64,000 nt of DNA from Bradyrhizobium sp. CCGB01 (lineage in GTDB: Bacteria > Pseudomonadota > Alphaproteobacteria > Rhizobiales > Xanthobacteraceae). Below, one piece after another: positions 6,612 to 61,004 of this stretch; the stretch's first letter is position 1; each line of letters starts with the position of its first letter. The DNA is taken from positions 7,440,001-7,504,000 of the forward strand of contig NZ_JANADK010000001.1 of assembly GCF_024199795.1 (NCBI RefSeq). The letters are read 5' to 3'. Below the pieces are notes generated by a model. It saw nothing but the letters and a program-made list of their open reading frames with translations. It was not told the DNA's origin and searched no databases. A program made the position numbers and the translations under genes.

Positions 6612-6655
6612 CATCCTTCGAGACGCCCGCTTTAGACGGGCTCCTCAGGATGAGG
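6612..6655 (-). repeat. Palindromic dispersed repeat, family A, reverse copy
   Basis: Starts CATCCTTCGAGACGCCCG and ends CTCCTCAGGATGAGG. It is the reverse complement of the family A consensus (CCTCATCCTGAGGAG...CTCGAAGGATG) and has an internal GC-rich stem (GCCCGC/GCGGGC-like). It is paired with a forward copy at 6699-6743. Intergenic between the MFS and c-di-GMP genes. Confidence 0.8.
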
Positions 6656-6698
6656 ACGGAGTGCGCGGCAACAGTTTCAACAGGCACATGCCGCTTGG

Positions 6699-6743
6699 CC
6701 TCATCCTGAGGAGACCGCGAAGCGGTCGTCTCGAAGGACGAGG
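6699..6743 (+). repeat. Palindromic dispersed repeat, family A, forward copy
   Basis: Starts CCTCATCCTGAGGAGACCGC, with an internal stem ACCGCGAAGCGGT, and ends CTCGAAGGACGAGG. With the copy at 6612-6655 it forms a head-to-head inverted pair about 43 bases apart, ending just beside the stop of the GGDEF-EAL gene. It may form a hairpin in the mRNA 3' end. Confidence 0.8.
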
Positions 6744-6750
6744 CGCGCGC

Positions 6751-27185: not shown

Positions 27186-27227
27186 CCTCATCCTGAGGAG
27201 CCCGCGAAGCGGGCGTCTCGAAGGATG
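27186..27227 (+). repeat. Palindromic dispersed repeat, family A, forward copy
   Basis: Best match to the family consensus in the window: CCTCATCCTGAGGAG, then the stem CCCGCGAAGCGGG, then CGTCTCGAAGGATG. It follows the thioesterase stop by 19 bases and is paired with a degenerate reverse copy at 27275-27311. Confidence 0.85.
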
Positions 27228-27274
27228 CAAGGCCACAGTCGGGCCTTCATGGTTCTCTAGGCGGTGCGAAGCAT

Positions 27275-27495: not shown

Positions 27496-27734
27496 GGTCA
27501 AATCCTCGTCTTGATGTCTGTTCTTGCGTCGGCGCGGCTGCCGCGCCACCTGCCCAGACAATCTCGACGCGGGAACGATGGTTCCGGCACGTAGAACGGT
27601 GAAATTCGCGCTTCTCGCTGGAACAAATCGGCCCGCCGCGCACGTGGAAAACCCCGCCCCGGCGCCCCATATAGGCACCAATCCCTGTTAAGAAGGCTCC
27701 CTCCCGCCACCCCGCGGTGCCAACGTGGGGCCAA

Positions 27735-30362
27735 ATGATTCGCATGACCGAGCCGAGCAAGATCACGTCCCAGAGCGTCCCCGACCACCAGCCCGCGGCC
27801 GGCGGCATCGCCGCGCGTGCGCGCGCCTCGGTGGGCCCGAAATATCTGTCGGGGCTCAATCCCGAGCAGCGCGAGGCCGTGGAGACGCTGGACGGCCCGG
27901 TTCTGGTGCTGGCCGGCGCCGGCACCGGCAAGACGCGTGTGCTGACCACGCGCATCGCCCACATCCTCAGCCAGGGTCGCGCCCGCCCCGCCGAGATCCT
28001 GTCGGTGACCTTCACCAACAAGGCCGCGCGCGAGATGAAGCACCGGCTCGGCCAGATGCTCGGCCACGCGGTCGAAGGCATGCCGTGGCTCGGCACCTTC
28101 CACTCCATCGGCGGCCGCATCCTGCGCACCCATGCCGAGCTGGCGCAGCTCAAGTCGAACTTCACCGTGCTCGACACCGATGATCAGGTTCGTCTGCTCA
28201 AGCAGCTGCTGCAGGCCGACAACATCGACGACAAGCGCTGGCCGGCGCGCATGCTGGCCGGCCTGATCGACGGCTGGAAGAACCGCGGCCTGACGCCCTC
28301 GCAGGTGCCGTCCGGCGAAGCCGCCGTCTTCGCCAACGGCAAGGGCGGCAAGCTCTATGCGAGCTACCAGGAGCGGCTGAAGATTTTGAACGCCGCCGAT
28401 TTCGGCGATCTGCTGCTGGAAGACATCCGCATCTTCCGCGAGCATCCGGATATCTTGCGGCAATACCAGCAGCGCTTCAAATTCATCCTGGTCGACGAAT
28501 ATCAGGACACCAACGTCGCGCAGTATCTGTGGCTGCGGCTGCTGTCGCAGGCGCCGGCCTCTCCGTCCTTCGCCTCTCCCCGCTTGCGGGGAGAGGCCGA
28601 CGCGCTCGGCAGCGCAATTGCGCGCCAGAGCGCGGCGGGTGAGGGGGACTCTCCAAGCACCGAGCTCGCCGAGACTCCCCCTCACCCCGACCCTCTCCCC
28701 GCAAGCGGGGCGAGGGAGCAGAAGGGTCCCACCAAAAACATCTGCTGCGTCGGCGACGACGACCAGTCGATCTATGGCTGGCGGGGCGCCGAGGTCGACA
28801 ACATCCTGCGCTTCGACCACGATTTTCCCGGCGCCAAGGTGATCCGCCTCGAGCGCAACTACCGTTCGACCGGCCACATCCTTGCCGCCGCCTCGCATCT
28901 GATCGCGCATAACGAAGGCCGGCTCGGCAAGACGCTGCGCACCGAGGACCATGACGGCGAGAAGGTCACGGTGACGGGCTCGTGGGATTCAGAAGAGGAA
29001 GCCCGCGGCATCGGCGAGGAGATCGAGCAGATCCAGCGCAAGGGCGAAAAGCTCAACGAGGTCGCGATCCTGGTGCGCGCGTCCTACCAGATGCGCGAGT
29101 TCGAAGACCGCTTCGTCACGCTCGGCCTGCCCTATCGCGTGATCGGCGGCCCGCGCTTCTACGAACGCGCCGAAATCCGCGACGCACTGGCTTATCTGCG
29201 CGTCATCAATTCGCCAGCCGACGACCTCGCCTTCGAGCGCATCGTCAACGTGCCCAAGCGCGGCCTTGGCGACGCCACCGTGCAGATGCTGCACGACCAC
29301 GCCCGCAAGCGCCGCATTCCGCTGTTCGAGGCGGCACGCGCGGTGGTCGAGACCGACGAGCTGAAGCCGAAGGCGCGCGGGTCCTTGCGCGACGTCGTCG
29401 CCCAGTTCGACCGCTGGCGCGCCCAGCGCGAGGTCACCGCGCACACGGACCTTGCCCAGATCGTGCTCGACGAGAGCGGCTATACCGAGATGTGGCAGAA
29501 GGACCGTTCGGCGGACGCCGCGGGCCGGCTGGAAAACCTCAAGGAGCTGGTGCGCTCGATGGAGGAGTTCGAGAACCTGCAAGGGTTTCTGGAGCACATC
29601 TCGCTGGTGATGGACCGCGATAGCGGGGCCGACGAGGACGCGGTATCGCTGATGACTCTGCACTCGGCCAAGGGGCTCGAATTCGACAACGTGTTCCTGC
29701 CCGGCTGGGAGGAAGGCCTGTTCCCGAGCCAGCGCACGCTGGACGAACAGGGCCGCGCGGGGCTGGAAGAAGAGCGCCGGCTCGGCCATGTCGGCCTGAC
29801 CAGGGCACGGCGCCGCGCGATGATCTATTTCGCGACCAACCGCCGGATCCATGGCACCTGGTCGACCACGATCCCGTCGCGCTTCCTCGACGAATTGCCG
29901 GCCGCCAATGTCGAGATCACGGAATCCAAGGGCGGCTCGGCCTGGGGCGGCACCGGCGGCTATGGCGCCTCGCGTTTCGACGACATGGAGGCGTTCGGCT
30001 CGACCTATTCGACGCCGGGCTGGCAGCGCGCCCAGGCCAACCGTAATCGTGGTGGCGGCCGCAGCGGCGGCGGCGACAGAAGCGGTGGTTTCGAGGAAGA
30101 AGGCTCGACATTCTCGTCTTCCTCATCATCCGGACCCGATTTCGGCAGCTTCTCCTCGCGCCGCCGCGGTCCGCTGACGATCGAGGGCGAGCTGGTCGCG
30201 AAATCCACCGGGACGACGTCAGAATTCTCACTCTCCGACCGGGTCTTCCACCAGAAATTCGGCTACGGCCGCGTCACCAAGATCGACGGCAACAAGCTCA
30301 CCATCGCCTTCGACAAGGCCGGCGAGAAGAAGGTCGTGGACAGCTTTGTGCAACGGGCCTGA
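27735..30362 (+). CDS. uvrD: UvrD/PcrA-type ATP-dependent DNA helicase with in-frame palindromic insert
   Basis: 875 residues, superfamily 1A 3'-5' helicase for nucleotide excision and mismatch repair. Walker A AGAGTGKT (about 60-67), motif II VDEYQDTN (253-260), motif III VGDDDQSIYGWRG (339-351), motif IV LERNYRS, motif V LMTLHSAKGLEFDNVF and motif VI GLTRARRR are all intact. Between motifs II and III a Ser/Pro/Ala-rich stretch (about 273-334) has no place in the family: E. coli UvrD joins these motifs with a short loop. It is encoded by a palindromic repeat (see 28572-28716). The C-terminus has a Gly/Ser-rich linker and a final PcrA-like domain (DRVFHQKFGYGRV). Start at the ATG at 27735; a GTG at 27717 is an alternative. 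Confidence 0.95.
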   Translation: MIRMTEPSKITSQSVPDHQPAAGGIAARARASVGPKYLSGLNPEQREAVETLDGPVLVLAGAGTGKTRVLTTRIAHILSQGRARPAEILSVTFTNKAAREMKHRLGQMLGHAVEGMPWLGTFHSIGGRILRTHAELAQLKSNFTVLDTDDQVRLLKQLLQADNIDDKRWPARMLAGLIDGWKNRGLTPSQVPSGEAAVFANGKGGKLYASYQERLKILNAADFGDLLLEDIRIFREHPDILRQYQQRFKFILVDEYQDTNVAQYLWLRLLSQAPASPSFASPRLRGEADALGSAIARQSAAGEGDSPSTELAETPPHPDPLPASGAREQKGPTKNICCVGDDDQSIYGWRGAEVDNILRFDHDFPGAKVIRLERNYRSTGHILAAASHLIAHNEGRLGKTLRTEDHDGEKVTVTGSWDSEEEARGIGEEIEQIQRKGEKLNEVAILVRASYQMREFEDRFVTLGLPYRVIGGPRFYERAEIRDALAYLRVINSPADDLAFERIVNVPKRGLGDATVQMLHDHARKRRIPLFEAARAVVETDELKPKARGSLRDVVAQFDRWRAQREVTAHTDLAQIVLDESGYTEMWQKDRSADAAGRLENLKELVRSMEEFENLQGFLEHISLVMDRDSGADEDAVSLMTLHSAKGLEFDNVFLPGWEEGLFPSQRTLDEQGRAGLEEERRLGHVGLTRARRRAMIYFATNRRIHGTWSTTIPSRFLDELPAANVEITESKGGSAWGGTGGYGASRFDDMEAFGSTYSTPGWQRAQANRNRGGGRSGGGDRSGGFEEEGSTFSSSSSSGPDFGSFSSRRRGPLTIEGELVAKSTGTTSEFSLSDRVFHQKFGYGRVTKIDGNKLTIAFDKAGEKKVVDSFVQRA
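28572..28716. repeat. Palindromic repeat (family D) inserted in frame in uvrD
   Basis: Left hairpin GCCTCTCCCCGC-TT-GCGGGGAGAGGC (28572-28597), 12-bp stem with no mismatch. Right hairpin CCCTCTCCCCGC-AA-GCGGGGCGAGGG (28691-28716), one mismatch. Between them GTGAGGGGGACTCT (around 28640-28653) is nearly complementary to AGACTCCCCCTCAC (around 28672-28685), giving a nested cruciform-like layout. Such elements are normally intergenic in this group; here all of it is read through in the helicase frame. Confidence 0.85.
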
Positions 30363-60895: not shown

Positions 60896-60996
60896 GTCAT
60901 TCCGGGGCGTGCGAAGCACGAACCCGGAATCCATTCATCCAGTGGCTCTGCCGCACGATGGATTCCGGGCTCGCGCTCCGCGCGCCCCGGAATGAC
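60896..60996. repeat. Palindromic dispersed repeat, family C
   Basis: GTCATTCCGGGGCGTGCGAAGCAC...CCGGAATCC on the left and GGATTCCGGGCTCGCGCTCCGCG...GCCCCGGAATGAC on the right: near-perfect inverted arms of about 37 bases around a 25-base loop. It directly follows the exporter operon and is convergent with the glycine-zipper gene, so it may serve as a bidirectional transcript end. Confidence 0.8.
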
Positions 60997-61004
60997 GACG
61001 GTGC

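Follow-up and report, generated by a model that had tools for sequence, protein, structure and literature searches.

Repeats of several dispersed families occupy one in-frame loop of the UvrD-type helicase gene in Bradyrhizobium

In Bradyrhizobium, a loop within the gene for a UvrD-type helicase is filled by dispersed repeats of unrelated families that are read in frame, and the occupant changes between close relatives while the flanking gene stays in place. The reading preferred here, at a probability of roughly 0.6, is that the loop is a permissive site at which REP-like repeats recurrently land and are exchanged, filtered for an open and acidic frame. Repeats would reach the loop through the mechanism that normally disperses them, or through an exchange with copies elsewhere or with other alleles; an insertion that put the gene out of frame, introduced a stop or contributed a basic segment would be lost; the surviving segment may act chiefly as a disordered, acidic spacer; and a new repeat would later displace the old occupant.

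The helicase gene and its repeat element

The window, i.e. the whole 64,000-nucleotide (64-kb) stretch analysed, belongs to genome G000 and carries the following features:

27735..30362, plus strand: uvrD/pcrA-type helicase gene, 875 aa from ATG (MIRMTEPS...), start as in homologues
28494..28514, plus strand: DEYQDTN, read from the sequence; columns 252-258, invariant in 38 aligned sequences
28548..28724, plus strand: segment absent from E. coli UvrD, about 59 residues by the alignment
28572..28716, plus strand: repeat element of family A, 145 bases, in frame in the helicase gene
28572..28597, unstranded: left terminal palindrome with perfect 12-bp arms (28572-28583 and 28586-28597)
28597..28638, unstranded: central inverted repeat, 21-nt arms, 81% complementary
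28637..28687, unstranded: inner inverted repeat, 17-nt arms (28637-28653 and 28671-28687), 94% complementary
28692..28715, unstranded: right terminal palindrome, one mismatch
28752..28775, plus strand: GDDDQSIY, where the next helicase motif begins; columns 338-345, invariant in 38 aligned sequences

The open frame runs from 27717 to 30362, the listed ORF beginning at a GTG at 27717. Its product matched the Pfam families UvrD-helicase (3.8e-84) and UvrD_C (7e-68). The top NCBIfam match was pcrA, with 753 bits against a cut-off of 911, and the product scored 684 bits against the curated NCBI UvrD cut-off of 1144, so that the PcrA and UvrD cut-offs were both missed. DEYQDTN, which we take to be helicase motif II, and the motif that the first-pass annotation had called III (GDDDQSIY) were both present. 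Near the UvrD C-terminus, a Gly/Ser/Arg-rich stretch (30045-30165 in the window) forms a second variable part whose length differs by species. An antisense open frame of 484 aa (27498-28952, minus strand) passes through the element and probably arises as a side effect of the GC-rich, palindromic sequence.

The first-pass annotation had described a 145-base element with a perfect 12-bp hairpin at one end and an 11/12 hairpin at the other, and both were found, at 28572-28597 and 28692-28715, respectively. In addition, the element as a whole forms a long inverted repeat, with 24-nt end arms that are 96% complementary. When the product was aligned to E. coli UvrD (3lfu, 2is1), its residues 269 and 329 paired with the adjacent chain residues 237 and 238, giving an insert of about 59 residues, in line with the 55-60 that reading through the element in frame had been said to add. 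The short loop attributed to other UvrD/PcrA proteins was likewise seen, both in this alignment and at the loci of relatives. Two other identities of the insert were rejected: a conserved UvrD domain, as no Pfam match covers it and loops are short elsewhere, and a known RNA family, as the Rfam search gave nothing near the gathering score over the element.

The 24-nt palindrome occurred at 48 sites (up to 2 mismatches) in the 9.3-Mb genome, against 0 for the reversed control pattern. The region 28551-28733 had at least 60 matching stretches in the genome (counting both strands at E <= 0.001, with 40 of the 119 candidates scored), and its RNA fold was predicted at -123.5 kcal/mol (z = -7.1 against shuffles). 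These three results place the repeat nature of the element beyond chance, and the related copies returned by both the pattern and the similarity search bear out the proposed in-frame capture of a dispersed palindromic repeat. The terminal palindrome of family A opens with CCTCTCCCCGC; CCTC is given as a variant of the CGTC tag in the accessible text of PMC3733652. Elsewhere in the window, family F repeats lie at 6612-6748 and 27186-27234, and a family B repeat at 60896-60997. As far as sequence can tell, the element is a repeat insertion read in frame in a conserved gene, missing in distant orthologues and present also outside the gene.

Occupants of the loop across genomes

The uvrD flank was found in 192 of the 195 Bradyrhizobium genomes of the genus search, and loops were read in 153 of these 192, best matches first, 151 of which were parsed. 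The other two were G015, incompletely covered but B-type, and G027 (L151), with a broken frame in an A element. The G027 loop, from a single-contig genome, was the only one read with a frame break, either a sequencing error or a real break. Of the 160 loci fetched, 158 parsed with an open frame; the named loci and the numbered genomes partly overlap (e.g. L245/L420 and L248/L423).

Repeat classes were assigned by letter patterns (VIPGRVEDANPES...HPGMT for B, SPRLRGE...PHPDPLP for A, SLPGLTRQSI...RRPGDD for C), three loops being assigned by eye and the label A being least sure for L450 and L452. Family B was present in 72 loops, A in 54, C in 18, D in one (its only member in the genus sample) and A plus B in one, with no recognised repeat in five. 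Repeats of four unrelated families were thus present in 146 of the 151 loops. All 151 were distinct, with lengths of 54-96 residues, the five repeat-less ones included. Among A-type loops, internal and end modules occurred in all four pairings (7, 10, 3 and 2 of 54), the remainder being classed as 'other'. The initial picture of one insertion of one element has to be replaced by one of several unrelated families replacing one another in the loop. The idea of a single insertion inherited throughout the genus was rejected, since the families are unrelated and well-supported Bradyrhizobium branches require 21 or more changes of type.

In a search of 60 relatives, the full-length match was obtained in the genus. 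In all 24 genomes from other families of the order, the two halves of the helicase meet at the loop without such an insert. Conservation of the 60 residues in distant UvrD proteins and confinement of the element to uvrD had both been named beforehand as findings that would speak against capture; the former is contradicted by these 24 genomes and the latter by the related copies elsewhere in the genome. In 40 further genomes of the same family, mostly of different genera, 38 loops were obtained, 20 of them with a recognised repeat (families A-F), 11 of 20-27 residues and 7 long without a class. Outside the family, 57 named loci comprised 44 loops of 20-29 residues, one of 32 and 12 of at least 39.

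Three loops apparently contain two elements in tandem (L210, E plus D; L221, E plus F; L178, A plus B). Long repeat-like loops were also seen in Mesorhizobium, Tianweitania, Aurantimonas and Ensifer (L256, L263, L266, L269, L288, L304); among these genera, the Ensifer loop alone was shown to be dispersed, with at least 88 matches of the Ensifer sp. BR816 repeat in its own genome.

Dispersal of the families and insertion into genes

Family matches were counted at E <= 0.001 on both strands with up to 40 candidates scored per genome, and all counts are hence lower bounds. Family B had at least 65 matches in G000, 73 in G117, 62 in G119, 63 in G169 and 15 in G234, and family C at least 7, 24, 35, 16 and 43 in the same genomes, respectively. 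Family F had at least 72 in G000, 32 in G234 and 58 in G310, and the D-plus-E loop at least 102 in G000, 87 in G169 and 37 in G276. In loop DNA, B reads CGTCATTCCGGGG...CCCGGAATGACG and C begins CGTCATTGCCGGGCTTGACCCGGCAAT, with CGTC at the ends of both. Families B and C therefore have the end tag and the many dispersed copies of CGTC-tagged REPs (PMC3733652), the tag being judged by eye.

Insertion of these repeats into genes was rare. Apart from uvrD, 29 A places were examined in G000, and a single one lay between clearly coding stretches (L002, G000:C1:9086124-9086259, minus strand). It sits in the linker that connects the two ATPase domains of an ABC protein of the oligopeptide type, most similar to YejF though below the YejF cut-off. 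This linker was parsed at 24 of 30 Bradyrhizobium loci, with A in 6, a further repeat, G (VMAGLDPAIH...RVKPGGDE), in 11 and none in 7. Because the same capture is seen in this ABC-transporter ATPase linker, the suggestion that repeats have a more general route into proteins holds beyond uvrD. Among 60 B and C loci from five genomes, the clear in-gene cases were the uvrD copies, with five weak others. This scarcity counts against the landing-site reading, as tolerance alone predicts commoner in-gene insertions.

Repeat density points the same way. From the three other repeat places in the window, and with intergenic DNA assumed to make up 10-15%, a 60-base target would by rough estimate be filled in a few per cent of species, against the 97% observed. 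Since occupancy at uvrD lies so far above repeat density, these sequence counts argue for selection, retention or targeting beyond simple tolerance.

Targeting could take the form of a hot spot, the machinery that disperses the repeats favouring the DNA of the loop as its target. Several families did hit the same codon neighbourhood, B and C share CGTC ends, the place was retained in B-to-C swaps, and genes with the Y1-transposase domain PF01797 were matched in 4 of the 6 genomes searched. Yet the ends of A, D and F differ, the distance from SQAP to the repeat varies, the second, unrelated protein linker behaves likewise, and PF01797 was absent from the other 2 of the 6 genomes. On balance, a sequence-specific hot spot seems improbable.

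Turnover of the loop and its kinship

In a uvrD tree built without the loop (96 rows), at least 40 type changes were needed, or 34 with weak branches collapsed (shuffled mean 47.7). The 64 Bradyrhizobium rows alone gave 26 changes against a shuffled-label mean of 28.1, and 21 against 23.3 with weak branches collapsed. A 507-base tree of 187 rows gave 76 changes against a shuffled mean of 93.3. Within Bradyrhizobium, repeat type is without phylogenetic signal. Nine of 13 pairs with less than 4% flank divergence differed in type, although pairs share rows and random labels would differ in about 64%. In the 44 main-clade rows, no linkage between type and flank was detected in any of eight distance bins (lowest shuffle share 0.08), and same-type pairs were no closer in the two 100-base stretches beside the loop. 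Loop divergence and flank divergence were uncorrelated in A, B and C. Hitchhiking of the type with flanking DNA was accordingly rejected for want of linkage in distance bins or close pairs, as was loop divergence tracking flank divergence.

Sister loci show such exchange. L087 (A) and L089 (B) match exactly over the 100 bases that precede the swapped segment and the 50 that follow it. At L240 (B) and L246 (C), a B-to-C swap has left the final 18 bases of the loop identical; at L217 (C) and L243 (F), the linkers beside a C/F swap remain similar. All three are exchanges of the loop alone.

The same data bear on allele exchange, by which a small set of long-standing loop versions (A, B and C) would pass between strains and species through homologous recombination, most changes of type being imports. 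Same-type loops of the main clade have common linkers (C tail ENDD..NEK.HV, B tails TEHAVGAP.ATPHV), a pattern of shared non-repeat linkers that favours allele exchange over fresh insertion and so counts against the landing-site reading. Proteins source-labelled B. japonicum (P0007, P0025, P0105) hold A, C and B, and the four module pairings of the A loops fit exchange as well. Speaking against imports are a type unlinked even to the 100 bases beside the loop, sister pairs that differ by the loop only, in-place swaps that retain the recipient linkers (L240/L246, L217/L243), and the same families lying behind other linkers in other clades and genera. Allele exchange as the main process is given a little under an even chance.

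Constraint, reading frame and charge

The loop dN/dS was 0.77 for A (47 rows), 0.70 for B (38 rows) and 0.67 for C (18 rows), whereas the flanks gave 0.05-0.06; a set of 21 dispersed A copies, translated in the uvrD frame, had 1.09 and 4 stops. Compared with the flanks and with these dispersed copies, the loop segment is therefore weakly constrained but read through. The open frames and the loop values lend indirect support to a segment that would persist in the mature protein. Assembly errors or a dying gene are refuted as a general explanation. The broken frame within the A element of the single-contig genome G027 fits such decay, and equally tells against the landing-site reading, but 158 of 160 loci were open, flank dN/dS was low and G000 contained no second close uvrD copy (next match, 33% identity); the chance that artefact or decay underlies the pattern is close to nil.

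The A loop of the window has four stop-free frames, the used one with a net charge of -3 and the other three with +6 to +8. In 22 dispersed B copies, another frame was open in 16 and the used frame in 10. That the used frame is simply the sole open one was rejected, for A by its four stop-free frames and for B by copies that are often open otherwise. Across the 151 loops, the used frame had a median net charge of -4 (range -9 to +1), against +6 for the other stop-free frames; in 113 of the 136 loops that offered an alternative, it was the most acidic of the stop-free frames. The same held for 24 of 26 and 26 of 30 loops in the family samples, and for 10 of 12 outside the family, where the median was +0.5. 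In 400 control stretches from the remaining uvrD, the coding frame had a median of 0 and other open frames +6, the coding frame being the most acidic in 170 of 393. With other frames at +6 in this control, the charge effect is partly a property of GC-rich DNA, which weakens the landing-site reading; the remaining effect looks like a filter for an acidic frame.

Median fold z-scores were -7.4 for A, -6.4 for B, -4.4 for C and -6.3 for F, and close to 0 in the ten repeat-less loops sampled; z was below -3 in 14/14 A, 13/14 B and 12/14 C loops, and in none of those ten. Predicted pairs had changed on both sides in 8 of 37 cases in A (23 rows) and in 1 of 33 in C (17 rows). Such both-sided changes can be explained by the exchange of whole modules, without selection on RNA.

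Selection might instead keep a long, acidic, flexible loop (or an mRNA hairpin), or its diversity, with repeats as mere raw material. The absence of any short loop among Bradyrhizobium, even where no repeat was recognised, fits this explanation, as do the acidic frame in all 151, the strong hairpins of the sampled loops with their both-sided changes in A, and the rarity of in-gene repeats elsewhere. Related genera nevertheless have loops of 20 residues (10 of 38 in the family sample), a dN/dS of about 0.7 indicates weak sequence constraint, and the hairpin is lacking in repeat-less loops and its both-sided changes nearly so in C. As the leading cause, selection of this kind is rather doubtful. 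A variant in which selection keeps the long acidic segment or its diversity while repeats are swapped through it repeatedly, as cassettes that leave the flanking gene undisturbed, with the linkers of a few other proteins, the YejF-like ABC ATPase for one, behaving likewise, is judged unlikely. For the landing-site reading, we infer the mechanism of exchange, the charge filter and the spacer role from the patterns above.

Relation to known repeats and significance

In-frame palindromes had been regarded as mainly a Rickettsia phenomenon. The Rickettsia cases stand: according to the accessible text of PMC2229807, which cites Ogata 2000, RPEs are stem-loop repeats of 100-150 bp found in intergenic regions and in frame in conserved proteins, and the gmk product with an RPE insert is translated and active. 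The restriction does not, as such insertions extend well beyond Rickettsia: the available part of PMC3733652 describes short palindromic REPs inside ORFs, many of which are DNA repair genes, with UvrD/REP helicase as one example, and reports that X. campestris and X. oryzae carry different REPs at nearly the same position within recB. The repeats described here resemble those intragenic GTAG/CGTC REPs in being short palindromic repeats within reading frames. They differ, as far as that text goes, in that a single site has been refilled by six or more families in the genus and its wider family, with turnover between close relatives and with flanks unlinked. From RPEs, as presented in PMC2229807, they differ in their hosts and in the many unrelated families at one site.

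For B. japonicum USDA 110, Br-REP1 and Br-REP2 are placed in intergenic regions and 3'-UTRs in the main text of PMC5082802, which contains none of the words uvrD, helicase, in frame or inserted; its printed Br-REP2 consensus resembles, by eye, the second half of family B (ATTCCGGGTTCG...CCGGAATGA). In the portion of PMC8266576 consulted, REPs of the TnpAREP/RAYT system are recognised by TnpAREP, with the GTAG tag and a cognate transposase as hallmarks, and by analogy this route may be possible for the dispersal of the palindromic repeats here. The available text of PMC12306157 makes no mention of Bradyrhizobium, UvrD or intragenic copies. No report of multi-family turnover was found in the literature searched, mostly outside subscription papers and supplementary files. 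REPs in genes, UvrD included, are already in print, and the turnover of the loop is the new part.

If true, the finding would turn repeats inside genes into a measurable process, followed at one orthologous site in about 150 species, with several families and over short time scales. It would make testable whether repeats contribute neutral spacers or useful segments to proteins, by what means REP-like families lacking a clear transposase are moved, and which frames of GC-rich repeats are tolerated in a protein. It is also a warning that, in these bacteria, loop sequences of a core repair gene are uninformative on kinship.
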